IMG/VR virus record: IMGVR_UViG_3300024264_000163
Span: 1-24,876 of that record
Direction: 5' to 3' (one strand)
Source of the DNA: a virus
Length of the DNA: 24,876 nt
Shown: positions 2 through 24,876 of the stretch, one piece after another
Numbering within the stretch: the first letter of the stretch is position 1
How the letters are laid out: each line of letters opens with the position of its first letter
Translations under genes and position numbers: made by a program
The notes under the pieces: generated by a model
The model's input: only the letters and a program-made list of their open reading frames with translations
What the model was told of the DNA's origin: nothing
The model's database searches: none

Positions 2-1177
2 GATTTCTTGCTTGATGAAACTGAAAAGTTTTGTCAAAACAAAGATCTATACAATGCTATTCGCAAATCGATTATGATTCTCGATGATGCTGACGGTGAT
101 AACGATAAAGGTACCATTCCTAAGCTCCTAGCGGACTCGTTAGGTATTAGCTTTGATAGTAGTGTTGGTCACGACTTCTTAACTGATTTCGAAGATCGTT
201 ATGAACATTACCATAAGAAAGAAGAACGCATTCCATTCGACATCGACATCCTAAACAAGATTACGAAGGGTGGTTTACCTCGTAAGTCTATGACTGTATT
301 GTTGGCAACTACCGGTGGCGGTAAGTCTTTATTGAAATGCCACATGGCTGCTAACCATTTGATGTATGGTAAGAATGTATTGTATATCACTATGGAAATG
401 GCTGAAGAAGAAATCGGTCGACGTATTGATGCTAACATCATGGATATTACTCTTGATGAAGTTCAAGACATTCCACGTGATGTATATGAAAAGCGGATGA
501 ATCGCTATAAGAGTAAGACAACCGGCAAGCTTATTGTTAAAGAATACCCTACTGGTTCTGCTCACTCAGGTCACTTCCGTCACTTATTGAATGAGTTAAA
601 ACTTAAGAAAAACTTCGAGCCTGATGTTATTTTTCTAGATTACCTTAACATATGTGCATCCGCTCGAGTTAAAGGTGCTGCAGCAGCAAGTAGTTATAAC
701 CTTGTTAAGAGTATTGCTGAAGAGGTACGTGGTCTTGCAATGGAGTTCAACTGTGCTCTTGTAACATCATCTCAGTTTAACCGTGATGGTTATGGCAACT
801 CTGATGTTGACCTTACTAATACATCTGAATCTATGGGTATTACTCATACTGCTGACTGTATTCTTGGTCTTGTAACATCTGAACAGCTTGACGAACTCGG
901 ACAACTCATGCTCAAACAATTGAAAAATCGTTGGGGTGATATCAGTTGGTATCGTAGATTCTTAGTTGGTATTGATAGAGCAAAGATGAAAATCTATGAA
1001 CTCGAAGAGAGTGCTCAAAACAATATTAACATGGACGACAGTTCCGGCGGTAACTCTGGAAAAAAGAGGCAGAGCTATGACGATGACGGACCAGTGTTCG
1101 ACAAAACAGACATAGGTCAGCGACTCGGTAATAAGAGCAAAAGAAAAGGTGTTTTCAACAACGTTCAACTAATTTAG
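2..1177 (+). CDS. 41: Replicative DNA helicase, gp41/DnaB type (5' end cut by window edge)
   Basis: Hexameric 5'-3' helicase of the T4-type replisome, which unwinds the fork together with the primase. The reading frame is open to the left edge, so the start lies outside; about 390 residues are visible against roughly 475 for T4 gp41. Counting from the TTG at base 8, a RecA-like core begins near residue 75, with a Walker A loop ATTGGGKS at residues 100-107 and a hydrophobic Walker B strand ending in FLDYLN near residue 215. An ITMEMAEEE segment follows Walker A, as is usual in DnaB-family helicases. The last 60 residues are polar, with Ser/Gly- and Lys/Arg-rich stretches. The primase partner is at 20459-21481, about 19 kb away. 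Family assignment is firm; the replisome role follows from T4 knowledge. Confidence 0.9.
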   Translation, partial: DFLLDETEKFCQNKDLYNAIRKSIMILDDADGDNDKGTIPKLLADSLGISFDSSVGHDFLTDFEDRYEHYHKKEERIPFDIDILNKITKGGLPRKSMTVLLATTGGGKSLLKCHMAANHLMYGKNVLYITMEMAEEEIGRRIDANIMDITLDEVQDIPRDVYEKRMNRYKSKTTGKLIVKEYPTGSAHSGHFRHLLNELKLKKNFEPDVIFLDYLNICASARVKGAAAASSYNLVKSIAEEVRGLAMEFNCALVTSSQFNRDGYGNSDVDLTNTSESMGITHTADCILGLVTSEQLDELGQLMLKQLKNRWGDISWYRRFLVGIDRAKMKIYELEESAQNNINMDDSSGGNSGKKRQSYDDDGPVFDKTDIGQRLGNKSKRKGVFNNVQLI

Positions 1178-4976: not shown

Positions 4977-5516
4977 ATGAAAACAAAAGTGATTAATTTT
5001 TATGGTGGACCCTGCTCGGGTAAAAGCACAGCAGCGGCCGGTTTGTTTTATAAGATGAAGTTAGCAGGTTATAAAGTAGAACTCACAGATGAGTTTGCTA
5101 AAGAATGTGTATGGGAAGAAAACATCCCAATGCTAAAAGACCAATTATGGATATTAGCACATCAACATCGAAAAATACTTAGATTAGCAGATAAGGTAGA
5201 TTATGTTATAACAGACTCTCCAGTATTGCTAAGTCCTATTTATCGTACTAAATATGGTGAACCAATGTATTCAGATACTATTGACACCATGGCTTTAGAG
5301 TGTTATAATAAGTACGATAATATCAATTTTATGCTAAGCCGTACTCGAGAAAATTACGAAGAAGATGGTAGAGCACAAGATGAAGTTCAAAGTATTCAAA
5401 TTGATTTAGATATATTAAAACAGTTTGAAGCACTCGATATTCCATTTACCCAATTAGAAAGCGATGATAATGCATCAGCCGCTTATCGTTATATAGTGAG
5501 AAAACATGCACATTGA
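4977..5516 (+). CDS. P-loop ATPase/kinase-like protein (AAA_28-like)
   Basis: A 179-residue P-loop NTPase. The Walker A loop GGPCSGKST occupies residues 10-18, directly after the first strand, as in nucleoside and nucleotide kinases. The strand and motif VITDSPVLLSP near residues 77-87 resemble the Walker B/DxSP region of deoxynucleoside kinase-like and NadR-kinase-like proteins. The segment LSRTRENYEEDGRAQD near 119-134 looks like the Arg-rich lid that closes over ATP. Similar proteins occur in many T4-like phages, where the substrate is mostly unknown. It starts three bases after the methyltransferase stop and overlaps the next gene by 11 bases, so all three are co-transcribed. A nucleotide-metabolism role is inferred. 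Confidence 0.75.
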   Translation: MKTKVINFYGGPCSGKSTAAAGLFYKMKLAGYKVELTDEFAKECVWEENIPMLKDQLWILAHQHRKILRLADKVDYVITDSPVLLSPIYRTKYGEPMYSDTIDTMALECYNKYDNINFMLSRTRENYEEDGRAQDEVQSIQIDLDILKQFEALDIPFTQLESDDNASAAYRYIVRKHAH

Positions 5517-6645
5517 AATAGACAAAATTTACCAACGCGAACTACAGCGTCAACAATCAACAATTGAACTAATTGCATCTGAAAACTTTGCATCAGATTC
5601 CGTAATGAAATTATGTGGTTCAGAATTTACAAACAAATATGCAGAAGGTTATCCTGGTCGTCGTTACTATAATGGTTGCGAACAAATGGACGAGATTGAA
5701 AACTTAGCAATACAGAAACTTAAAGATATCTATGATTGTGAGTTTGCAAATGTTCAACCTCATAGTGGAGCTAACGCAAACCTAGCTGTATTCCAAGCAT
5801 TTTTAGAACCTGGTTCTCGTATCCTTGGAATGGATTTAGCAAGTGGTGGACATTTATCCCACGGTGCTCCAGTTAATATTTCAGGTAAAAACTATGTAAC
5901 AGCTCATTATGGCGTAGACGAAAATGGTTTAATTGACTATGAAGAAGTTCGTAGAATAGCTTTAGACTTTAGGCCTTCAATGATTATTGCAGGTGCTTCT
6001 GCTTATCCTCGCCAAATTGATTGGAAAAAGTTTAGAGAGATTGCAGATGAATGTAGAGCATTATTAATGGTAGATATGGCTCACTATTCAGGCCTGATCG
6101 CCGGTGGTGCTTATGATAGTCCAATCCCTTATGCAGATGTGGTTACTTCAACTACTCATAAAACATTAAGAGGCCCTCGTGGTGGAATCATCTTATGGAA
6201 TAACCCTAAATATTCTAAACTGATTAATTCAGCTGTATTCCCAGGTACACAAGGTGGACCATTAATGAATATTATTGCAGCTAAAGCTCAAGCCTTTATT
6301 GAAGCAGATACAAAAGAATTTTTTGATTACGCTGAAAATGTGATTAAAAATGCACAAGCAATGTGTAAGGTATTTGAAGAACGAGGAGTTAAAGTACAAA
6401 CAAGTGGAACAGATTCACATATTATTTTAATGGATTTGAGTGAGAGTAAATATAGTGGTAGGGAATTTGCAGACTTATTAGAAGAGAATGGTATTACTGT
6501 AAATAAAAACGGAATACCAAATGACCCTCGTCCCTTTATGGAAACAAGTGGTATTCGTATAGGTACTGCAGCAGAAACAACAAGAGGCCATGATGAAGCA
6601 TGGTTTATTAAATTAGCAGAAAGAATAACGGAGTTATTACAATAA
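5506..6645 (+). CDS. glyA: Serine hydroxymethyltransferase
   Basis: A PLP enzyme that converts serine and tetrahydrofolate to glycine and 5,10-methylene-tetrahydrofolate. Diagnostic motifs are present: ELIASENF at residues 21-28, the YAEGYPGRRYYNGC substrate-binding stretch at 45-58, VDMAH with Asp189-190 region and His193, and TSTTHKTLRGPRGG at 214-227 with the Schiff-base lysine at 219. At 379 residues it is shorter than the bacterial enzyme (about 415-430), with trimming mainly at the C-terminus, but no active-site motif is missing. The start at 5506 lies within the end of the kinase-like gene. It lies in an early-type unit. Products could feed dTMP synthesis and purines, and its glycine could feed the 5-aminolevulinate synthase encoded at 24558. 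Confidence 0.95.
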   Translation: MHIEIDKIYQRELQRQQSTIELIASENFASDSVMKLCGSEFTNKYAEGYPGRRYYNGCEQMDEIENLAIQKLKDIYDCEFANVQPHSGANANLAVFQAFLEPGSRILGMDLASGGHLSHGAPVNISGKNYVTAHYGVDENGLIDYEEVRRIALDFRPSMIIAGASAYPRQIDWKKFREIADECRALLMVDMAHYSGLIAGGAYDSPIPYADVVTSTTHKTLRGPRGGIILWNNPKYSKLINSAVFPGTQGGPLMNIIAAKAQAFIEADTKEFFDYAENVIKNAQAMCKVFEERGVKVQTSGTDSHIILMDLSESKYSGREFADLLEENGITVNKNGIPNDPRPFMETSGIRIGTAAETTRGHDEAWFIKLAERITELLQ

Positions 6646-6833
6646 TGGAAATTACACCAATTAGCCCAGTATTGAATCCACCCTTTGCAAATAAGATTGA
6701 TTACGACTTAAGAACAGTTAAAGTAACTACTAAAGTAAGTAATGACTATCAACAAGAAACAGTTTACACTTACGATAAATATGGTAGACTAATGAATTCT
6801 GTAGTCAGAAAAGATACAATAGCAGAAATATGA
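6645..6833 (+). CDS. Small conserved phage protein of unknown function
   Basis: A 62-residue protein whose ATG shares one base with the stop codon of the serine hydroxymethyltransferase gene and whose stop overlaps the next start (ATGA), a strong sign of translational coupling. The N-terminal EITPISPVLNPPF stretch and the central alternating hydrophobic pattern (TVKVTTKV) are reminiscent of short hypothetical proteins in T4-like cyanophages. YTYDKYGRL near the C-terminus superficially looks like an RHS repeat, but a single copy in so short a protein means little. No function is proposed. Confidence 0.6.
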   Translation: MEITPISPVLNPPFANKIDYDLRTVKVTTKVSNDYQQETVYTYDKYGRLMNSVVRKDTIAEI

Positions 6834-7492
6834 ACGTAAACATACCAAAGAAAATGTCTCATATTTGGGTAGGGCCAAGACCGGCTCCACTCAAATGGAT
6901 GTATACTTGGCGCGATAAACATCCAGAATGGGAATATAAGATATTTACAGACCAGATGTTAAAAAAACGTGCTTGGAGAAATCAAGCATTGATAGAACAT
7001 TATTATAATGCTAGAGCTTTCTGTGGTGTTTCAGATTTAATTCGTTATGAGTTATTATATGAGCGAGGTGGATTTATTGCAGAAGCTGATATGATTTGTT
7101 TAGAAAATACAGATGAGCTATGGAGCTCTCCAGCTGACCATGCTTATACTTGTTATGAGAATGAAAAAGGCCGTGGTGATAATGTTCAGCCAATATTTGG
7201 TTGTAATCCAGAGAATCCGTTTGTTAAACATATTTTAGATGAATTAAAAAAGCTTAGACCACAAGATTTACATCATCAACCTCACAACTCAACAGGTAAT
7301 GCTTTCTTAGCAAAACATATACCAAATTGGAAAGATAAATTAACAGTTTGGCCATCACACTATTTTATACCACAATTTTATATTAATGGTGCACAAAGAT
7401 ATAATGGGCCAGATAAAGTTTACGCAGACCATAAATGGGGCTCAACAGGTATGGGCTTTAACTGTGTAGATTATTCGCAAGGAGTATTATAA
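6830..7492 (+). CDS. GT32-like glycosyltransferase (OCH1/DXD family)
   Basis: A 220-residue nucleotide-sugar-dependent glycosyltransferase. IPKKMSHIWVG at residues 5-15 and the WRDKHPEWEYKIFTD stretch at 27-41 match the N-terminal pattern of the capsular-polysaccharide/OCH1 sugar-binding group. GVSDLIRYELLYERGGF at 66-82 contains the conserved Asp69, Arg72 and Gly-Gly. The metal-binding DXD that normally follows is EAD here (85-87), so the first aspartate is replaced by glutamate. No signal peptide or membrane segment is visible, so it should act in the host cytoplasm. It is coupled to both neighbours, the next being a sulfotransferase. The acceptor (host envelope glycan, virion protein or modified base) is unknown. 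Confidence 0.82.
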   Translation: MNVNIPKKMSHIWVGPRPAPLKWMYTWRDKHPEWEYKIFTDQMLKKRAWRNQALIEHYYNARAFCGVSDLIRYELLYERGGFIAEADMICLENTDELWSSPADHAYTCYENEKGRGDNVQPIFGCNPENPFVKHILDELKKLRPQDLHHQPHNSTGNAFLAKHIPNWKDKLTVWPSHYFIPQFYINGAQRYNGPDKVYADHKWGSTGMGFNCVDYSQGVL

Positions 7493-8148
7493 TGTACTTA
7501 TCACATAAACATAAATTCTTATTTTTGCGCACACCCAAAACAGCATCAAGTAGTCTGTCAGATTTCTTTATTAGAAATATACAAGACGATGAAGCAATCT
7601 ATACTGAAGTAGAAGATAGTAATCTACCAGGTACATTAGATGAAGCGATCGTAAGTAAATATAGACCTTATGCTTTTTACCATTTTACATTAAACCAATT
7701 AATTGACGAAGGTATATTAACAAAAGAACAAGCATTAGAATATGATATATTTGCTTTGTTAAGAAATCCAGTTGATAGAGCAAAAAGTTTTTATTACTTT
7801 TATCGTAAATGGAAAGGTCGACAAATAGACCCTTCTATAGAACAATATCGTAATTGGACAATCAATGGAGTATTTAAAGGTGAACCAAATAGTGGCATTG
7901 TTCAAAGTAGCTTATTAAAACTAGGTAGTAAATCTGTTGGTCGTTTCTGGTTATACGAAGATTTAGAAAAAGAATTAAGTAACTTTATGTTTAACCGTAG
8001 GTTGCGTATTGACCATCCATTACCAAGACATAAAACAGATTCAAGAGTAGCAAGACAGAATGAGATTGAATTTGAGCAAAAAGATATTGATGAAATGAAG
8101 AAAACATTTGGCGAAGATTTTAAATTATACGACGAACTAGCAAAGTGA
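7492..8148 (+). CDS. Sulfotransferase family protein
   Basis: A 218-residue protein with both binding sites for the sulfate donor PAPS. FLFLRTPKTASSSL at residues 9-22 is the 5'-phosphosulfate loop (Pro15-Lys16-Thr17). FALLRNPVDRAKSFYYFY at 87-104 is the 3'-phosphate site, with Arg91 and Ser99 in the expected places. Such enzymes move sulfate to hydroxyl or amino groups of sugars, lipids or proteins. It has a good AAGGAG ribosome site at 7479-7484, starts on the last base of the GT32-like gene and overlaps the GT25-like gene by four bases. The order GT, sulfotransferase, GT suggests building or decorating a sulfated glycan. The host must supply PAPS, since no sulfate-activation gene is visible. 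Confidence 0.88.
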   Translation: MYLSHKHKFLFLRTPKTASSSLSDFFIRNIQDDEAIYTEVEDSNLPGTLDEAIVSKYRPYAFYHFTLNQLIDEGILTKEQALEYDIFALLRNPVDRAKSFYYFYRKWKGRQIDPSIEQYRNWTINGVFKGEPNSGIVQSSLLKLGSKSVGRFWLYEDLEKELSNFMFNRRLRIDHPLPRHKTDSRVARQNEIEFEQKDIDEMKKTFGEDFKLYDELAK

Positions 8149-8831
8149 AAGCTTATATCCTGAGAATCAATAGTGAGTTGTCACATAAGTATGCAAAGAT
8201 AACTGCAGAAACTTGTGATGCTATTGATTTAGATTGGGAATATTTTGATGGTTGGTATGATATAACAGGTCGTGCAGCTTGGTGCCAAACTGGTATTAAG
8301 ATGAAATTTTACGAACCACCTTTAGTTATAGACAATATGAGTCCTGCACAGAAAGCAAATGCATGTAGTGCTGGACATGGTGCAATATGGAAAAAGATTG
8401 CAGAAGGTGATGATGAAGTTGGTATAGTATTGGAACATGATGCTTTAATGTATTATAAACCAGATATTAAAGTACCAGACAATTATTTAATTACTTTAGG
8501 ATATAAGTTATCTAACTATCACGAGTATAGATTTTTAGATGCAAAGAATGAGCCTAGAGAATTAATACATATTGATGGGCATGAAGGTGCTCATGCATAT
8601 ATGATGACAAAAAGAACTGCTCAAAATTTAGTACATGAAATTGAAGAAAACGGAATTTTGGGTGCTGTTGATAATGCATATTTTATTAGAGGACAAAGAA
8701 GAACAAAAATACCTTTAATGATTATGTCACCAACTCCAGCAATAGGTTATTTAAGAGAAAGTACAATATGGAGTCAATCTGCTCATGTTAATTATGAGTT
8801 TATTCCTTCATTCGTAAAATATTATAAATAA
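8145..8831 (+). CDS. GT25-like glycosyltransferase (LPS/procollagen galactosyltransferase type)
   Basis: A 228-residue protein starting with GTG that overlaps the sulfotransferase stop by four bases. The opening AYILRINSE strand and the block CSAGHGAIWKKIAEG (74-88) followed by GIVLEHDALMYY (93-104) match glycosyltransferase family 25, in which a conserved Ser-His pair precedes a Trp and then an ILEDD metal-binding motif. Here the motif reads LEHD (96-99), so the first aspartate is replaced by histidine. The rest is soluble. Its role is probably to transfer a sugar onto the glycan handled by the two genes before it. The last codons contain the TATAAATA box that probably drives the next gene. 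Confidence 0.7.
   Translation: MKAYILRINSELSHKYAKITAETCDAIDLDWEYFDGWYDITGRAAWCQTGIKMKFYEPPLVIDNMSPAQKANACSAGHGAIWKKIAEGDDEVGIVLEHDALMYYKPDIKVPDNYLITLGYKLSNYHEYRFLDAKNEPRELIHIDGHEGAHAYMMTKRTAQNLVHEIEENGILGAVDNAYFIRGQRRTKIPLMIMSPTPAIGYLRESTIWSQSAHVNYEFIPSFVKYYK
8823..8830 (+). promoter_or_regulatory. T4-type late promoter box TATAAATA
   Basis: An exact TATAAATA overlaps the last codons of the GT25-like gene and lies 43 bases before the ATG at 8873. It marks the change from the enzyme unit to the run of head-type proteins and is the best candidate to drive the genes from 8873 to about 15091. Confidence 0.75.
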
Positions 8832-12679: not shown

Positions 12680-13858
12680 ATGAGACGTTTTAAAAAATTA
12701 TTTAGTGAAGCCAAAATAGAAGTCGATGACATTTCTGTTGGTAAAAAGAAGAAGGCTCCAGCTGGAATTAAAGTTGACCCTAACTTAAAGGGTTATGCTT
12801 ATAACGAAAAAAATAGAGTTACTGATATCGACGTTGAACAAGGCGAACGTGACCTTAAGATGGCTAAATTGAAAAAGGCAAAACAAAAAGTTCAGAATGA
12901 AGATTCTGATGGGTCCCATGATATGTCTTTAGATGATATTAAAAAGAGATATGCTAAAGAAATTATTCGTTTCCAAGATGGTGACGGTGATTTATCACAC
13001 GGTGCTAAAATGGCAATGATGGGCTATGTAGGTTCAGATGCTATTAAGACAGACGATCCTGATGAGTTTGATAACTTTGTTCTAGGCTTAAAAATGGGTA
13101 AATATAAAAAGACTAACGAACAGCAGTCAATGGATACTCTACTTAATATGTTAGACGAAACTAATCTTGACGAAGCTCTATCTCCTAAAGAAAAAGAGAA
13201 GCGTTTAATAATGATTAAGAAAGCTGTTGAAAAACTTAACAGAGCAAATCTTGAAAAAGTTAAGAGAATGGCTATGAGAGATATGAAAGCATCTGGTATG
13301 TTTGACGACGCAATGGACGAACATGTAAAGGGTGGTGGTGATTCTTATGATGCTTTACAAAATGCAAAAGCCAAAGCGCGCGACCAAGGCAAAGTATGGG
13401 ATAGTTTAGGCCGCGACGTAAAAGATCGTTTACTAGATAAAGAAATGGTTGCACTAGGATATGAGAAAAAACCTGGTAATTCACAGTATACCAAAGTTCC
13501 TACTGAAAAAGAAAAAGCATTTGCTGATAAAGTCAGAGCTGATAATGATAAAGTGAGGAAAATGTCAGACAAAGACAAGACTCAATATTATATCGACAAC
13601 CCAAACAAAAGTCAGGGTGGAGACACTGTTTCCGAAAAGGGTAAAATCAAAATTAAGATTTCAGAGTACCAAGCTGTTGTACAAAAATATGAAAACTTTG
13701 CTCAAAAAGCAATGGAAAAAGCTATGGAAGCTGAAGAGAATGACGATGATATGGCATTCGAAAAATACCAAGACGAAGAACAAGCTTACCAAGATAAAGC
13801 AGATGATTTTAGACGTAAGGTCGACGAACTTAAAGACAAACTAAGTGATATGGAATAA
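12680..13858 (+). CDS. Charged head-type protein with capsid-targeting-like N-terminus and coiled-coil C-terminus
   Basis: A 392-residue protein with a GGAGG ribosome site at 12665-12669. MRRFKKLFSE (1-10) followed by Ala fits the shared N-terminal decapeptide, with Phe rather than Ile/Leu at position 8. LDE/A at 163-166 is an internal prohead-protease-like site that would split the protein into two parts. Residues 100-104 (DGDGD) resemble a calcium-loop fragment. The last 70 residues are Glu/Lys/Gln-rich and predicted coiled coil. Function unknown; composition and neighbours point to an internal or scaffold-like head protein rather than an enzyme. Confidence 0.6.
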   Translation: MRRFKKLFSEAKIEVDDISVGKKKKAPAGIKVDPNLKGYAYNEKNRVTDIDVEQGERDLKMAKLKKAKQKVQNEDSDGSHDMSLDDIKKRYAKEIIRFQDGDGDLSHGAKMAMMGYVGSDAIKTDDPDEFDNFVLGLKMGKYKKTNEQQSMDTLLNMLDETNLDEALSPKEKEKRLIMIKKAVEKLNRANLEKVKRMAMRDMKASGMFDDAMDEHVKGGGDSYDALQNAKAKARDQGKVWDSLGRDVKDRLLDKEMVALGYEKKPGNSQYTKVPTEKEKAFADKVRADNDKVRKMSDKDKTQYYIDNPNKSQGGDTVSEKGKIKIKISEYQAVVQKYENFAQKAMEKAMEAEENDDDMAFEKYQDEEQAYQDKADDFRRKVDELKDKLSDME

Positions 13859-13860
13859 TA

Positions 13861-14238
13861 TTGAAAAAGTTTAATAATTATATAGAAGAGAACTTCGGTT
13901 TATACGAAGGAGTTACAGTACCTCTCGAGCAACCAATGCTTGAGTTTGAGGAAGACTCCGACCCAGAAATTAATAAACCTAAGCGATCAGGTGGTCCTAC
14001 TAAATATGTGGTCTATGTTAAAGACCCTAAAACTGGTAATGTCAAAAAGATAAACTTTGGCGATGTTAAAGGTGGACTTACTTCTAAGATTAATGATAGA
14101 GATGCAGCTAATTCTTTTGCAGCACGACATAACTGTGACATGAAAAAAGATAAAACAAAAGCTGGTTATTGGGCTTGCAGATTACCTAAACATGCAAAGA
14201 GCCTCGGATTGAAAGGTGGAGGAAACTACTTTTGGTAA
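13861..14238 (+). CDS. Conserved phage head-type protein with RARHNCD-like C-terminal domain
   Basis: A 125-residue protein with a TTG start two bases after the previous stop. MKKFNNYIEE (1-10) again has Ile8 and Glu10. The C-terminal domain reads KYVVYVKDPKTGNVKKINFGD, then FAARHNCDMKKDKTKAGYWACRL, a module widespread in T4-like marine phages as I remember it, with Cys and His residues that could bind a metal. The final ten residues are Gly-rich and end in a Phe-Trp pair. Function unknown; the combination of a capsid-targeting-like leader with this domain suggests delivery into the head. It overlaps the next gene by seven bases. Confidence 0.65.
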   Translation: MKKFNNYIEENFGLYEGVTVPLEQPMLEFEEDSDPEINKPKRSGGPTKYVVYVKDPKTGNVKKINFGDVKGGLTSKINDRDAANSFAARHNCDMKKDKTKAGYWACRLPKHAKSLGLKGGGNYFW

Positions 14239-14618
14239 AATTTAAAGATATAGTTTTAATCATTATATTAGCACTTGCAATAGCAGGTTGTTCATCTATT
14301 GGTAAATATTTACCAAGTGAATTTGATAACGTTGAATATGGTAAATTAGTAGAATTAAAAGTAATCTCTAATATGCCTCAAGAAGATTGGTGCAAAAAAT
14401 CAACAGTAAATCAAATGAACTATAGAGCTAAATATTTAGTTACATATGCTGAAAATCGTTTAAATGATAATATCACAGAGATATATAAAGGATTACACGG
14501 TCTTACAGAAGAATTAGTAAATAAAGAAGAACCAAGTCAAGCATATTGTAGAATTAAACGAACTAATATACATAATATAACTGATGATGTATTAAGTGTT
14601 TTTGGAGACCGTAAATGA
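14232..14618 (+). CDS. Small phage lipoprotein
   Basis: A 128-residue protein with a lipoprotein signal peptide: basic MVKFKD start, hydrophobic residues 7-18, and a lipobox IAGC with Cys20 as the lipidated residue. The TTG start at 14232 is supported by a GGTGGAGG stretch ending ten bases upstream; no ATG is available that would retain the signal. The mature part is about 108 residues, with two further cysteines (near 53 and 99) that could form a disulfide in the periplasm. It should be anchored in a membrane of the host envelope. Possible roles are superinfection exclusion or lysis; neither can be read from the sequence. Confidence 0.72.
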   Translation: MVKFKDIVLIIILALAIAGCSSIGKYLPSEFDNVEYGKLVELKVISNMPQEDWCKKSTVNQMNYRAKYLVTYAENRLNDNITEIYKGLHGLTEELVNKEEPSQAYCRIKRTNIHNITDDVLSVFGDRK

Positions 14619-14833
14619 GTTTAGAAAATTTTGAAAAGGATGCTTTAAAGCAAATAGAACAATTAACTTCTTTAAAAGAATCTGGTGATATTACAATAGA
14701 AGAATTTAAAGAATTAGTTGAAGATATTGCTGATATATCTAAAATTGAATCTGATTTAACTTTAGAAGATAACAAGATTAAAGCTGAAAAAATTATTGAT
14801 GCGATCAAAGCAGTAGCTGGTTTATTAAGTTAA
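14615..14833 (+). CDS. Short helical protein of unknown function
   Basis: A 72-residue acidic protein, coupled to the lipoprotein by an ATGA overlap. It is almost entirely heptad-like: KQIEQLTSLKESGDITIEEFKELVEDI resembles a short SHOCT-like helical hairpin (the GDITIEEF part), followed by a second helix rich in Ile, Asp and Lys. There is no signal peptide, metal site or catalytic motif. Coupling to the lipoprotein suggests a joint role, but nothing more can be said. Confidence 0.55.
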   Translation: MSLENFEKDALKQIEQLTSLKESGDITIEEFKELVEDIADISKIESDLTLEDNKIKAEKIIDAIKAVAGLLS

Positions 14834-19247: not shown

Positions 19248-19731
19248 TGGTTGTTCGTTATTACCTCAAAAGCCAATAGAGATAGTCAGTAAACCTGTTC
19301 CTATCAATATTATCCAACCTGAACTGCCTAGACCAATAGGTTTATCAGAAGTTCAGATGAAAGTTGTATCTGAAGCTGTAATTACAAATCCTTGTAAAAA
19401 GTCAATACAATACGAACCACCAAGATTCAACGATAAGGGCGAAGAGCAACTCAAACGTCCTAAAGCTTGTGATTTGGAAGATAGAGAGAATCCAACATGG
19501 CCAGTCGGCTATACATATCTCGATAGATTCCTTGATGAGAACAAGATCGCACAAGGTGGTGACATAGTTTTCGTAGCAACTACGGTAAAAGACTATGAAA
19601 TAATGACGGCAAATTTCCAAGAGCTCCGTAGGTATATCAGAGAGTTAGGAGAAGTCATTGTTTATTATCGTAAGGTAACCACTAATGACAAAGAAGAAAA
19701 GGCAACCAAGTCAAAACCAGTTGACCAGTAG
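19198..19731 (+). CDS. Putative o-spanin (Rz1-like lipoprotein)
   Basis: A 177-residue lipoprotein with signal peptide residues 1-18 and lipobox VASGC, Cys19 being the lipidated residue. Its first 50 bases overlap the i-spanin gene in a different frame. The mature protein starts Pro-rich (LLPQKPIEIVSKPVPINIIQ, then PELPRP), as outer-membrane spanins often do. It is longer than most o-spanins (usually 60-100 residues): a C-terminal domain of about 110 residues, with Cys near 65 and 83, has been added and is similar in style to short lipoproteins of T4-like marine phages. Lysis role is inferred from position and lipobox. Confidence 0.7.
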   Translation: MIARTLVLALLITTVASGCSLLPQKPIEIVSKPVPINIIQPELPRPIGLSEVQMKVVSEAVITNPCKKSIQYEPPRFNDKGEEQLKRPKACDLEDRENPTWPVGYTYLDRFLDENKIAQGGDIVFVATTVKDYEIMTANFQELRRYIRELGEVIVYYRKVTTNDKEEKATKSKPVDQ

Positions 19732-19795
19732 ACCACTTCTCACCACCGACCCACGAATAAATATTTTATTTAATTCGATATTTTACCGATTACCT

Positions 19796-19803
19796 TATAA
19801 ATA
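19796..19803 (+). promoter_or_regulatory. T4-type late promoter box TATAAATA (a second box AATAAATA at 19756-19763)
   Basis: In the 128-base gap after the o-spanin gene, a TATAAATA lies 57 bases before the GTG at 19860 and a further AATAAATA lies 33 bases upstream of it. The TATAAATA ends four bases before the -35 of the sigma70-type promoter at 19808, so early and late signals are stacked in front of the same gene. Confidence 0.55.
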
Positions 19804-19807
19804 ATAT

Positions 19808-19836
19808 TTGACAAATCCTCTTTGTTATGTTATAAT
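19808..19836 (+). promoter_or_regulatory. Strong sigma70-type promoter (early/middle)
   Basis: Perfect TTGACA at 19808-19813, 17-base spacer and perfect TATAAT at 19831-19836 with an extended -10 TG at 19828-19829. Spacer length and extended -10 are the same as at 4351 and 20391. It should serve the coiled-coil membrane protein at 19860. Confidence 0.88.
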
Positions 19837-19859
19837 AACCAATTAAATGGAGCAGACAG

Positions 19860-20387
19860 GTGTCAGACGAACTCAATCGTGTAAACACAGACATAGCATT
19901 AATTAAAAACGACATCAAGCAAATCGAAAGATTTTTTGATAAAGTTGATGAAGCAATGGACCAAATGGTCTCTTTGGCTCAAGATATAGCTGTGCAACAA
20001 AAAGTCTTAGAAACTTTTGATTCTAAGTTAGTATCTATAGAAGATAAAGCAGATACACAAGCTCGCATTAATATAGAAGCTCGTTTCGCTTTTAAAGAAG
20101 AATTAGATGACCATAAGTTAAAATTCCAAGGAGCTATGACTGATGGTATGAAAAGTGCTCAGGTGGCACATACAGAATATAATTTAAAACAAAGAGAATG
20201 GATGGAAGAGCGAGCAGACCGTACAATGACTGCAATTAATACGCTCACCAAAGAATTGTCTTTAAAGATAGATGAGAATGACCAAAGAATTCGTTCTCTA
20301 GAAAATCTAAAATACTGGTTATTAGGAGCCGTAGCAATTGTTACAGCTGGAGCCAACTTATTCATTGACATGATGTCTGGTAAATAA
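19860..20387 (+). CDS. Coiled-coil protein with C-terminal membrane anchor (XhlA-like)
   Basis: A 175-residue protein starting with GTG, supported by GGAG at 19849-19852. It is a long helix with the repeating start NTDIALIKNDIKQIERFFDK, typical of haemolysin XhlA-like and related phage proteins, and a single membrane segment near the end (about 151-171, WLLGAVAIVTAGANLFIDMM). This tail-anchored layout puts the coiled coil in the cytoplasm. XhlA-type proteins work with holins in some phages, and the lysis genes lie just upstream, but this gene has its own sigma70-type promoter, which points to expression before lysis. Holin-associated function is therefore only one possibility; membrane tethering of a phage complex is another. 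Confidence 0.65.
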   Translation: MSDELNRVNTDIALIKNDIKQIERFFDKVDEAMDQMVSLAQDIAVQQKVLETFDSKLVSIEDKADTQARINIEARFAFKEELDDHKLKFQGAMTDGMKSAQVAHTEYNLKQREWMEERADRTMTAINTLTKELSLKIDENDQRIRSLENLKYWLLGAVAIVTAGANLFIDMMSGK

Positions 20388-20390
20388 TGG

Positions 20391-20419
20391 TTGACAAATC
20401 CAACCAAACCTGTTATAAT
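20391..20419 (+). promoter_or_regulatory. Strong sigma70-type promoter (early/middle) for the primase
   Basis: Perfect TTGACA at 20391-20396 and TATAAT at 20414-20419, 17 bases apart, with an extended -10 TG at 20411-20412. The -35 lies four bases after the preceding stop codon. The leader would be about 33 bases long, with no evident Shine-Dalgarno sequence before the primase ATG at 20459. Confidence 0.88.
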
Positions 20420-20458
20420 ATCCCTAATTAATTAAACAGACAGACTTATACTTTTATT

Positions 20459-21481
20459 ATGATAGATTTCGTTGACGTACAATACGCACAATCTCTTGCC
20501 GGTCGCATGGAGAGATTCAAAGTCACACGTACAAATCCATACCGTATCAACTTCCGTTGCCCATTATGTGGTGACAGCCAAAAGTCTCGTACAAAAGCAA
20601 GGGGTTGGCTACTTGAGAAAGACAACAACTTACACTATTATTGTCACAATTGTGGTGCAAGTCATTCCTTTTCCTACTTTCTTAAGTTAGTCGACCCTCT
20701 TGCATTTAAAGATTACCTATCAGATAAATTTATTAATAAAGCAAAGAAAGATGACGGCAAGTCAGTGTTGGAAAAGACTAAGTTTGAGGCACCAAAATTT
20801 TCAAGTAAAGATGCAATAAAAAGTATAAAAAAAGTGTCTCAGTTGGACTACAACCATTTTGCTAAAATATATATACAAAAGAGGGTAATTCCTTCAGAGC
20901 AACATTATCGACTATTTTACACCCCAAAATTTAAAACTTGGGTTAATACTATTATACCCGATAAGTTTGCTAATACTGATAAGGACGAACCTCGTTTGGT
21001 AATTCCATTCTTCGATAAACAGAAGAAAATATTTGGAGTATCGGCTAGATGTTTTAAACCAGACTCTAGTCTGCGATACATTACAATTATGTTCGAGGAT
21101 AGACCGAAGGTTTTCGGCCTTGACGTTGTCGACTTTAACCAGCAATACTTTGTGGTTGAAGGAGCTCTAGATTGTATGTTTTTAAAGAATGCGGTGGCCA
21201 TGGCAGGTGCAGATGGAAATACCGAAGCTTTAGACAATGCAAACAAAAACGCTGTATTCGTTTTTGACGCTGAACCTCGTAATAAAGAGATTCACAAAAG
21301 AATGGAAAAAATCATTGACCAAGGATATTCAATCTGTATATGGCCAAATGATTTACCAGGAAAAGACATTAATGAGATGGTCCTTAATGGCCATAAAAAT
21401 ATTGAAGAAACAATTAGAAATAACGTTTATAAGGGACTCGAAGCAAAGATGAAATTCACTTTTTGGAAAAAATCGACATGA
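20459..21481 (+). CDS. 61: DNA primase, gp61 type
   Basis: Synthesises the RNA primers of the T4-type replisome and works with the gp41 helicase. The 340-residue length matches T4 gp61 (342). A zinc ribbon is formed by Cys34 and Cys37 (RCPLCGDS) and Cys62 and Cys65 (YCHNCGAS). The TOPRIM domain shows YFVVEGALDC (230-239, Glu234) and FVFDAEPRN (267-275, Asp270 and Glu272). It stands alone behind a sigma70-type promoter and is followed by a 63-base gap. In T4 the genes for primase and helicase are neighbours; here they are about 19 kb apart. Confidence 0.92.
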   Translation: MIDFVDVQYAQSLAGRMERFKVTRTNPYRINFRCPLCGDSQKSRTKARGWLLEKDNNLHYYCHNCGASHSFSYFLKLVDPLAFKDYLSDKFINKAKKDDGKSVLEKTKFEAPKFSSKDAIKSIKKVSQLDYNHFAKIYIQKRVIPSEQHYRLFYTPKFKTWVNTIIPDKFANTDKDEPRLVIPFFDKQKKIFGVSARCFKPDSSLRYITIMFEDRPKVFGLDVVDFNQQYFVVEGALDCMFLKNAVAMAGADGNTEALDNANKNAVFVFDAEPRNKEIHKRMEKIIDQGYSICIWPNDLPGKDINEMVLNGHKNIEETIRNNVYKGLEAKMKFTFWKKST

Positions 21482-21544
21482 CACTCTTCTCTTATCCACC
21501 TTTCAATTCCTTCGCGAAAACAAAAATATAACTAGGAGAGTAGT

Positions 21545-23335
21545 ATGCAATATTGTGGCATAGAAATCGACAATAAACGTAACAAAATATTATCAGAACA
21601 ATCACTTAAATTATTACAAGACTATTACTGTAGAGAAGATGAGAAGTCACCTCAACAAGCATTTGCTCGTGCAGCAGCTTGTTTTAGTGGTGGTAATAAT
21701 AAATTAGCACAACGAATATATGAGTATGTTTCTAAGGGATATTTTATGTACTCATCTCCAGTATTGTCAAATGCTATAATAAAAGGTGAAAAAGTAAAAG
21801 CATTACCGATTTCTTGTTTCCTAAGCTATGTGCCAGATACTCTTGATGGTTTAATTGAGCATACAAATGAGTTAAGATGGTTATCAGTAAAAGGTGGTGG
21901 AGTTGGTGGTCATTGGTCAGCGATCAGAGCAGTATCAAATAAAGCTCCAGGTCCTATGCCATTCCTACATACTGTTGATGCAGATATGGTTGCATACCGA
22001 CAAGGACGAACTCGTAAAGGTTCTTATGCAGCTTATATGGATTGTGACCATCCAGACATTATTGAATTTATTAATATGAGAATTCCTACTGGTGATGTTA
22101 ACCGTAAAAATCTGAACCTACATCACGCTGTCAATATAACAGATGACTTTATGAAAGCCGTTGAAGCTGGTACAGACTGGAACCTTCTAGACCCTAATGA
22201 TCGTTCAGTCAGAGAAACGATTAAGGCAAGAAGGTTATGGGAACTCATTTTAGAAACAAGATATCGTACAGGTGAGCCTTACTTAAATTTCATTGACACA
22301 GCAAACCGTGCATTACCTGATGCTCAAAAAGCAATGGGAATGACTATTAAGGGGTCGAATCTATGTAACGAAATTCATCTTGTCACCGATGAAGATAGGA
22401 CAGCAGTATGTTGTTTATCATCTGTTAATTTAGAAATGTATGACGAATGGAAAGATACAAGTATGGTAAAAGACCTTATTGTATTTTTAGATAATGTATT
22501 ACAATTCTTTATTGATAATGCTGGTGATGAGATTAGTAAAGCTCGTTATAGTGCAACACAGGAAAGGTCACTCGGTTTAGGAGCTATGGGATTACATTCA
22601 TACTTCCAAAAACATTTAATACCTTTTGATAGTGATGAAGCTGTAGCGATTAACGAAATTATATTTAAAGACATTAAAACAAAGTCACTTGAAGCAACTA
22701 TGACTATGGGTAAACAACGAGGTGAAGCTCCAGATATGGTAGGAACTGGCCGTCGTAATGCTCATATGTTAGCAATCGCTCCAAATGCAAACAGTTCTAT
22801 GATTGTAAATACTTCACCAAGCATCGAGCCTTGGAAAGCTAATGCATTTACTTCAAGAACAAGGGTGGGAAGTCACTTAAATAAAAATCCATACCTCGAA
22901 AGAGAATTGGAAGCTATTAATAAAAATACCGATGAAGTTTGGTCGTCAGTCATTACAAATGGCGGCAGCGTACAACATTTGGATTTTTTAAGCCCTCGTG
23001 TTAAAGAGGTATTTTTAACCGCAATTGAATTAAATCAGTTAGCTCTTATCAGACTAGCAGGAGACAGACAGAAGTACCTATGCCAAGGACAATCTCTCAA
23101 CATATTCTTCCCTGCAGGAGCAGATAAAGCAACTCTTCATAAAGTCCATTATGAAGCTTGGAGACAAGGAACAAAAGGACTATATTATTTAAGAACAGAA
23201 ACATCTAACAAAGCCGAAAACGTATCGCAGAAAGTCGAACGTGAAAAATTAGATGACATTATTAACCCAGACGCAGTTAGATTTAGTCACGGACAAGAGG
23301 AAGACCAAGATGAATGCGCAGCATGTCAAGGATAG
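21545..23335 (+). CDS. nrdA: Ribonucleoside-diphosphate reductase class Ia, large subunit (NrdA), short form
   Basis: Reduces ribonucleotides to deoxyribonucleotides for phage DNA synthesis. Catalytic residues are in place: Cys91 (SCFLSY), the NLCNEI motif with Asn272, Cys274 and Glu276, Cys289 in the second half of the redox pair (CCLSSVNL), the radical-transfer pair in LYYLRT near the end, and a C-terminal CAAC (591-594) that shuttles electrons. At 596 residues it is about 160 shorter than T4 or E. coli NrdA, and the N-terminal ATP cone that switches the enzyme off with dATP is absent. The ribosome site AGGAG lies seven bases before the ATG. The NrdB partner starts five bases after the stop. 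Confidence 0.95.
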   Translation: MQYCGIEIDNKRNKILSEQSLKLLQDYYCREDEKSPQQAFARAAACFSGGNNKLAQRIYEYVSKGYFMYSSPVLSNAIIKGEKVKALPISCFLSYVPDTLDGLIEHTNELRWLSVKGGGVGGHWSAIRAVSNKAPGPMPFLHTVDADMVAYRQGRTRKGSYAAYMDCDHPDIIEFINMRIPTGDVNRKNLNLHHAVNITDDFMKAVEAGTDWNLLDPNDRSVRETIKARRLWELILETRYRTGEPYLNFIDTANRALPDAQKAMGMTIKGSNLCNEIHLVTDEDRTAVCCLSSVNLEMYDEWKDTSMVKDLIVFLDNVLQFFIDNAGDEISKARYSATQERSLGLGAMGLHSYFQKHLIPFDSDEAVAINEIIFKDIKTKSLEATMTMGKQRGEAPDMVGTGRRNAHMLAIAPNANSSMIVNTSPSIEPWKANAFTSRTRVGSHLNKNPYLERELEAINKNTDEVWSSVITNGGSVQHLDFLSPRVKEVFLTAIELNQLALIRLAGDRQKYLCQGQSLNIFFPAGADKATLHKVHYEAWRQGTKGLYYLRTETSNKAENVSQKVEREKLDDIINPDAVRFSHGQEEDQDECAACQG

Positions 23336-23339
23336 CAAG

Positions 23340-24548
23340 ATGGATATAACAATATATACCAAATCAAACTGTCCTTTTTGTGAAAAAGCCAAAGCATGGT
23401 TTAAACAAAGAGGATTTACATACACACAAATAGTACTCGATGATGAAGAGCAAAGATTAGCATTTTACCAAAGAGTAAGTAATGGTAAAGAGGTAAGGTC
23501 AGTACCACAAATTTTTATCGACGATAAGCACATTGGAACATATAATGACCTGATGGCTATTGCAGATACTCTTGTTAAGAAACAAGGTGGATTATTAGAG
23601 TTCTCAGAAACTTATAAACCATTCCATTACCCTTGGGCTGTAGAGATTACAACAAGACACGAAAAAGCACATTGGATTGAAGATGAATTAGATTTATCAG
23701 AAGATGTAGCTGATTGGAAAGGTGGAAAGATTACAGCAGTTGAAAAAGAGTACATTACAAATATCTTAAGATTATTTACTCAAAGCGATGTTGCAGTCGG
23801 TCAAAACTATTATGACCAATTTATTCCTAAGTTTAAGAATAATGAAATTCGTAATATGCTTGGGTCATTTGCAGCAAGAGAAGGTATTCACCAAAGAGCT
23901 TATGCTCTATTAAATGAAACCCTTGGTCTACCTGATAGTGAGTACCACGCGTTCTTAGAATATTCAGAAATGGCCGATAAGATTGACTATATGAGAAAAG
24001 CTGATACAGCAACATTACGTGGTCTTGGTTTATCATTAGCCAAATCAGTATTTAACGAAGGTGTTGCACTCTTTGCTTCTTTCGTAATGCTATTAAACTT
24101 CCAACGTTTCGGTAAAATGAAAGGTATGGGTAAAGTTGTAGAGTGGAGTATTCGTGATGAAAGTATTCACGTTGAAGGTAACTCAAAACTCTTTAAAGCA
24201 TTTGTTAAAGAACATAGTCGTGTTGTCGATAATGAGTTTAAGAAAGAAATCTATGAAATGTCAAAAGACATTGTAGACCTTGAAGATAAATTCATCGACC
24301 TTGCTTATGAAATGGGTAACATTGAAGGATTGGATACAGCAGAAGTTAAAGAGTATATTCGTTATATTACAGACAGACGCTTATTACAACTTGGTATGAA
24401 ACCAAACTTCAAAGTAAAAGACAATCCACTTCCTTGGTTGGAATGGGTATTAAACGGTGCAGACCATACTAACTTCTTTGAAAACAGAGTGACTGAATAT
24501 GAAGTTGCTGGTTTGAAAGGAGATTGGGACGACGCTTACGCAGCATAG
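23340..24548 (+). CDS. nrdB: Glutaredoxin-NrdB fusion: ribonucleotide reductase radical-generating subunit with its own reductant domain
   Basis: A 402-residue fusion. Residues 1-80 are a glutaredoxin with the redox motif CPFC (11-14) and the SVPQIFID stretch with the cis-proline (54-61). From about residue 88 it is NrdB: diiron ligands Asp150, Glu181, His184, Glu240, Glu274 and His277 and radical Tyr188, with the spacing of E. coli Asp84, Glu115, His118, Glu204, Glu238, His241 and Tyr122. The ATG at 23340 is chosen over in-frame upstream ATGs because AAGGA at 23328-23332 is well placed for it and the upstream ones lie inside nrdA. Function is unlikely to be impaired. The C-terminus lacks obvious oddities. 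ALA synthase follows after nine bases. Confidence 0.93.
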   Translation: MDITIYTKSNCPFCEKAKAWFKQRGFTYTQIVLDDEEQRLAFYQRVSNGKEVRSVPQIFIDDKHIGTYNDLMAIADTLVKKQGGLLEFSETYKPFHYPWAVEITTRHEKAHWIEDELDLSEDVADWKGGKITAVEKEYITNILRLFTQSDVAVGQNYYDQFIPKFKNNEIRNMLGSFAAREGIHQRAYALLNETLGLPDSEYHAFLEYSEMADKIDYMRKADTATLRGLGLSLAKSVFNEGVALFASFVMLLNFQRFGKMKGMGKVVEWSIRDESIHVEGNSKLFKAFVKEHSRVVDNEFKKEIYEMSKDIVDLEDKFIDLAYEMGNIEGLDTAEVKEYIRYITDRRLLQLGMKPNFKVKDNPLPWLEWVLNGADHTNFFENRVTEYEVAGLKGDWDDAYAA

Positions 24549-24557
24549 AGATAGAAC

Positions 24558-24876
24558 ATGATTGATGAAAAACCTTTTATAGATGTAATTGAAAAACTTA
24601 AAGCAGATGGAAATTATAGAGTTTTTAATGATATTGTAAGAACTCGAGGAGAATTTCCAAGAGCAACATGGTATAGTAAATACTCACCGAAGAATATTAT
24701 TAACTGGTGTAGTAATGACTATTTGGGTATGGGTCAAAATCAGTATGTTATTGACGCTATGCAAACTGCGTTGGATAAAACAGGTTCAGGTAGTGGAGGT
24801 ACTCGTAATATTGGGGGTACCTCCCATTACCATGTAACACTGGAAAATGTATTGTCACAATTACATAAAAAAGAAC
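24558..24876 (+). CDS. hemA: 5-aminolevulinate synthase (3' end cut by window edge)
   Basis: PLP enzyme that condenses glycine with succinyl-CoA to 5-aminolevulinate, the first step of haem synthesis by the C4 route. The first 106 residues are visible. YRVFNDIVRTRGEFPRA (20-36), NWCSNDYLGMGQ (49-60) and GSGSGGTRNIGGTSHYH (76-92) are characteristic. Thr82 in GGTRNI, corresponding to Thr83 of the Rhodobacter capsulatus enzyme, and Arg21 favour this enzyme over the related KBL and BioF, which read differently here. It follows nrdB by nine bases with only a weak ribosome site and is probably in the nrd operon. The PLP lysine lies beyond the window, so completeness is not known. Confidence 0.93.
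   Translation, partial: MIDEKPFIDVIEKLKADGNYRVFNDIVRTRGEFPRATWYSKYSPKNIINWCSNDYLGMGQNQYVIDAMQTALDKTGSGSGGTRNIGGTSHYHVTLENVLSQLHKKE

Follow-up and report, generated by a model that had tools for sequence, protein, structure and literature searches.

Why would a marine phage of the T4 type carry, directly behind its ribonucleotide reductase (RNR) genes, a gene for the enzyme through which haem synthesis is entered? The question is raised by the IMG/VR virus record IMGVR_UViG_3300024264_000163 (G000), analysed here over its whole length of 24,876 nucleotides (the window), which ends inside alaS, an open reading frame for a hemA-type 5-aminolevulinate synthase (ALAS). With pyridoxal 5′-phosphate (PLP) bound to a lysine as cofactor, ALAS condenses glycine with succinyl-CoA into 5-aminolevulinate (5-ALA); it is the first haem enzyme in alphaproteobacteria, and the reaction is well established for this enzyme family. 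The best explanation, with a probability of about 0.85, is that the window ends in the 5′ part of an auxiliary metabolic gene, through which the phage makes a working ALAS and keeps up the supply of haem, probably for respiration, during infection.

The reading frame begins with an ATG 9 nt past the stop codon of a glutaredoxin-NrdB gene and stays open through the last base of the window, encoding 106 residues. Since the virus record itself is 24,876 bases long, the truncation comes from where the record stops and not from a frameshift. A preliminary description had recognized the motifs WCSNDYLGMGQ and GSGGTRNI in this frame, and both are present, at the position it gave. Against NCBIfam, the fragment matches the ALAS model TIGR01821 with an E value of 3.4e-37 (128 bits for the cut fragment alone); the best model of glycine C-acetyltransferase reaches 3.4e-15, and BioF 2e-13.

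The remainder of the gene was read in relatives, of which the fragment found 231 in all. Eighty viral loci were fetched from these; 73 hold a complete alaS (>380 residues) and seven run off their contig. One of them, L002, is 99.94% identical to window positions 19558-24876 (5.3 kb), and L001, L003, L004 and L005 are 95.6-95.7% identical to the window. In L002 (5001-6197), alaS encodes a complete ALAS of 399 residues with a stop codon, no frameshift, the PLP lysine K248 and one ambiguous residue, bearing out the expectation of an uninterrupted protein of about 400 residues that carries the lysine.

Other α-oxoamine synthases, namely KBL, BioF and serine palmitoyltransferase (SPT), belong to the same fold superfamily, and all of their models match the protein. 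However, the L002 enzyme reaches 533.4 bits against TIGR01821 (EC 2.3.1.37; cut-off 338.55) and stays under the NCBIfam cut-offs of all three. A tree was built from 43 viral and 73 bacterial ALAS sequences, to which BioF and Kbl of E. coli were added; these two sit far outside the ALAS clade, and the viral protein groups with ALAS (SH-aLRT 99-100). Profile cut-offs and tree thus agree with the earlier choice of ALAS over KBL or BioF, and an identity as KBL, BioF or SPT was rejected on both counts, its probability being close to nil. Sequence matches in the PDB are led by the bacterial ALAS structures 7x98 (Rhodopseudomonas palustris) and 2bwn (Rhodobacter capsulatus). An AlphaFold model built from 11 viral sequences also matched ALAS entries first; with a moderate pLDDT of 72.5, and low values over residues 21-88, it counts as support rather than proof.

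The catalytic machinery is conserved throughout the viral family. Conservation was scored in R. capsulatus ALAS numbering on 151 viral sequences with more than 360 aligned residues, drawn from two overlapping searches and hence from partly shared contigs; K248, H142, D214, H217 and R374 lie beyond the end of the window and were read in relatives. T83, N85, H142, E185, S189, D214, V216, H217, T245, K248 and R374 are identical in all 151, and R21 is an arginine in all 150 sequences that reach that position. Pairwise dN/dS values of 0.06-0.15 (eight pairs) show that the viral gene is under purifying selection. His342, which is involved in haem feedback, is absent from all 151 viral sequences, in agreement with the main text of Wegner et al. 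(PMC11480375). It is present in just 7 of 73 bacterial ALAS, however, and because the other 66 also do without it, its absence is no mark of viral change. As to the feedback residue Cys400, 138 of the 151 viral proteins have no cysteine among their C-terminal 55 residues, and 51 of the 73 bacterial ones have none among their C-terminal 60.

The same tree bears on whether the gene belongs to the phage at all. The viral sequences form a single clade within ALAS (SH-aLRT 100), its stem measuring 0.97 changes per site, and on the sequences compared this clade falls inside the alphaproteobacterial ALAS; the bacterial rows were picked for their high similarity to the viral protein and do not name SAR11, so that the tree speaks for an alphaproteobacterial ancestry rather than for one donor lineage. 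The best cellular match, from a Marinicaulis metagenome-assembled genome (MAG; L090), is 56-57% identical, and 57% was also the highest value among 385 genomes sampled from the class to which an alphaproteobacterial MAG belongs. Viral relatives were found at no fewer than 573 loci. The view that a haem-entry enzyme is uncommon in T4-like phages is therefore not supported, the more so as phage ALAS was published in 2024 (PMC11480375). Among deposited phages, the 106-residue query found no ALAS, and the full-length query found 19 records, all below 60% identity, the 12 listed being 30-35% identical and KBL or BioF where annotated. Host DNA or a chimeric assembly might be suspected from one contig, G021, which has two alaS copies and is possibly chimeric. 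Against this stand the hundreds of viral loci, an nrd-alaS order that recurs wherever they were examined, the single viral clade and a best cellular match of just 57%; the recurring phage context led to the rejection of host contamination, which has virtually no probability left. The gene is phage-encoded and apart from cellular ALAS, as seen from the gp41 and nrd genes, the T4-like synteny and the one viral clade. G021 itself (IMGVR_UViG_3300021959_009875, 15 kb) carries its two differing alaS genes at 18-1208 and 13594-14790, both on the minus strand; they are 73% and 82% identical to that of L003, with an nrdB match upstream of each, and the assembly may be chimeric.

The RNR genes directly upstream, noted in the preliminary description, are confirmed by profile matches to NrdA and to a glutaredoxin-NrdB fusion, and the linkage recurs in the family. 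An alignment-based search gave at least 573 relatives, of which 80 loci were inspected. In 76 of them, nrdB precedes alaS; in the remaining four, under 2.1 kb of sequence is available on that side, too little to judge. The gap between nrdB and alaS is below 60 nt in 51 loci, 200-900 nt in 16 and near 1.75 kb in nine. Three arrangements occur, with glutaredoxin-NrdB as in the window, with a T4-type NrdB (L261), or in the order thyA-nrdB-nrdA-alaS (L267).

On its other side, alaS has a near-constant partner. Among 64 loci that extend far enough, 63 have a gene for a DUF454 protein (PF04304, YbaN-like membrane protein) no more than 2.6 kb behind alaS. Conversely, a search seeded with DUF454 met alaS in 63 of 66 sufficiently long loci, including loci with no RNR gene found nearby; these counts take no account of relatedness. 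The order of the two genes is reversed in L429, L432, L434 and L443. The three DUF454 loci without alaS are fragments of 12-30 kb in which DUF454 stands behind a T4-type nrdB. None of alaS, DUF454 or an alternative oxidase (AOX) gene was found in 35 Melnitz-like nrdB loci with more than 3 kb behind nrdB, and among deposited phages DUF454 occurs in just seven records, several of them annotated ybaN and bacterial-looking. In 18 of the 64 loci, a GroES-like Cpn10 gene lies between alaS and DUF454 (e.g., L208:8062-8331).

In bacteria, genes of type 11 secretion have both DUF454 and haem oxygenase in their surroundings (PMC12282271), E. coli ybaN belongs to the Fur regulon (PMC7157518), and DUF454 is induced under iron restriction (PMC7970244). 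In alphaproteobacterial genomes (89 proteins, 20 loci), no haem family was among the 25 neighbour families listed, the commonest of which had two members each. A haem linkage of DUF454 in these genomes is thus unsupported by its neighbours, and the link to haem and iron comes from the papers alone. A tentative proposal is that alaS and DUF454 make up a two-gene phage module, in which DUF454 might act with phage-made 5-ALA or haem, for instance in membrane delivery or protection, and which in many lineages has been placed in the operon for deoxynucleotide (dNTP) synthesis. If true, this would give a functional assignment to DUF454, whose function is otherwise unassigned.

Genes of respiration occur at some of these loci. 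An AOX gene (PF01786) follows alaS in 11 of 64 loci, for example at L207:7197-7757 (240 bits), and in L260 and L278 a cytochrome c gene lies downstream of alaS and an AOX gene upstream. In L260 (11366-11686), a small cytochrome c-like gene was seen about 4 kb behind alaS, with a serine hydroxymethyltransferase (SHMT) gene in between. Phage C48C1 carries a 61% AOX homologue annotated as hypothetical. An exact-phrase literature search for phage alternative oxidase had no match; broader wording did return papers.

Taken together, the proposed course of events is that the phage enzyme would supply 5-ALA, and hence haem, in the infected cell; that alaS would be expressed along with the dNTP-synthesis genes; and that haem supply would be sustained through the shutdown of host expression, mainly to serve the respiratory chain. 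The respiratory chain is suggested as the main haem sink because sister loci carry AOX or cytochrome c and nearly all have DUF454 beside alaS; the timing of expression, this sink and a part played by DUF454 are what we infer from the whole. SHMT, which makes glycine and methylene-tetrahydrofolate (methylene-THF), may be a source of glycine for ALAS. Several points weigh against this explanation. The window has just 106 codons, and every statement about the full-length enzyme comes from relatives. L206 and L207, to which the 95.6-95.7% sisters L001 and L003 belong, carry AOX, but L208, to which the near-identical L002 belongs and which is closest to the window, does not; this implies a recent gain or loss. 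AOX is itself haem-free, and for both of these reasons the benefit to respiration is put forward as a proposal. A virus-specific loss of haem feedback, which was also considered, is unsupported against the bacterial ALAS control. Activity and expression in the window's own clade are predicted from sequence, and the host is not secure.

Two other roles for the gene have to be set against a supply of haem to respiration. The phage might make 5-ALA as the start of a bilin pathway, in which haem is converted into biliverdin and on to phycobilins by a phage haem oxygenase and PcyA/X. A cassette of three such genes has been published (main text of PMC11480375), and haem oxygenase (hemO) is present in 6 of 45 alaS records (L016, L027, L057, L061, L064 and L067). 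Yet no hemO was found in the window's closest records, G001-G012, although these are fragments of 12-41 kb (pcyA/X was not searched for), and the adjoining genes are instead nrd, AOX and DUF454. This makes a bilin pathway unlikely for the window's clade. Alternatively, the gene might serve nucleotide synthesis, with SHMT yielding methylene-THF for thymidylate and ALAS removing the leftover glycine, which would account for alaS keeping company with nrd, thyA and glyA. This idea draws on the position of alaS behind RNR genes in three arrangements, one of them with thyA, and on SHMT genes in the window and in 14 of the 45 alaS records. It fits poorly with most of the loci L421-L446, which pair alaS with DUF454 and have no RNR gene found beside it, and with the 31 of 45 fragments in which SHMT was not seen; synteny with nrd may also reflect merely a shared expression class. 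The chance that this is what the gene is for is slim. A further use mentioned in the preliminary description, in making bacteriochlorophyll, finds nothing in its favour in the window or the neighbours examined.

Table 1. Positions of alaS and of other genes of the window, with one DUF454 gene from a related record.
Feature	Position	Strand	Basis and remarks
DnaB-like gp41 primase-helicase	2..1177	+	tblastn 51-57% to T4-like phage DNA primase-helicases; 5′ end open; T4-like marker
glyA, SHMT	5506..6645	+	NF000586, 551 bits, above cut-off
Probable DNA primase (gp61-like)	20459..21481	+	Upstream of nrdA as in Melnitz; inferred from synteny
nrdA, RNR large subunit	21545..23335	+	NF006577, 774 bits, above cut-off
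Glutaredoxin-NrdB fusion, RNR small subunit	23340..24548	+	NF009398 (bifunctional glutaredoxin/NrdB), 2.2e-206, above cut-off
alaS, first 106 codons	24558..24876	+	TIGR01821; cut by record end
DUF454 gene	L208:8328-8744		Example of the 63 loci

The remaining genes of the window indicate what kind of phage this is (Table 1). Its gp41-like primase-helicase and a gene order shared with Methylophilales phage Melnitz (Kyanoviridae) sustain the earlier label of a T4-like phage. Melnitz has the same order of gp41 ... primase-nrdA-nrdB, and among cultured phages its NrdA is the nearest to that of the window (71% identical); the primase of the window, which had no match in Pfam, is so named only by its position relative to the Melnitz annotation. 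Unlike the window, Melnitz has no alaS behind nrdB, and no DUF454 was found in it. The SHMT of the window is matched at 60-80% identity by one deposited phage record and below 60% by the others. At 6830-8831 of the window there are three consecutive genes that resemble sugar- or sulfo-transferases by eye (no profile search was made).

Melnitz infects OM43 methylotrophs and is kin to SAR11 phages, and a host switch between the two has been proposed (PMC9004378); one valaS phage cited by Wegner et al. has a predicted gammaproteobacterial host (main text of PMC11480375). For these reasons, an alphaproteobacterial host does not follow from the enzyme. The alphaproteobacterial link drawn in the preliminary description thus stands for the ancestry of the enzyme and falls short for the host, which is possibly in the alphaproteobacteria.

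ALAS in phages is not new, since it was described and shown to be active in 2024, and the window adds a further member. According to the main text of Wegner et al. (2024, Nat Commun; PMC11480375), valaS is found in phages of fresh water and in marine phages related to pelagimyophages; it occurs alone or with hemO and pcyA/X, and a freshwater phage copy, CB_2, complements an E. coli 5-ALA auxotroph. The main text of that paper, as distinct from its figures and supplements, makes no mention of a linkage of alaS to RNR, DUF454 or AOX. The RNR-linked position, the near-constant DUF454 partner and the AOX of some loci were thus not found reported there. This context may matter, as it ties a haem-entry gene to RNR, nearly always to DUF454 and at times to AOX or cytochrome c, in widespread uncultured kin of SAR11 and OM43 phages; it suggests that such phages manage respiration together with DNA precursors. 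For DUF454, a widespread protein family, it provides a lead that can be tested.

Compared with alphaproteobacterial HemA, as in R. capsulatus (2bwn) and R. palustris (7x98), the phage enzyme shares the family, length, PLP lysine and substrate-binding positions, but its identity to any cellular match found does not exceed 57%, and it has a long viral stem in the tree. The vAlaS proteins in the main text of Wegner et al. likewise form a clade apart from bacterial ALAS and keep the active-site residues, as does the window's clade. In contrast to the valaS cassette, the available fragments of the window's clade carry alaS alone among those tetrapyrrole genes that were searched for.
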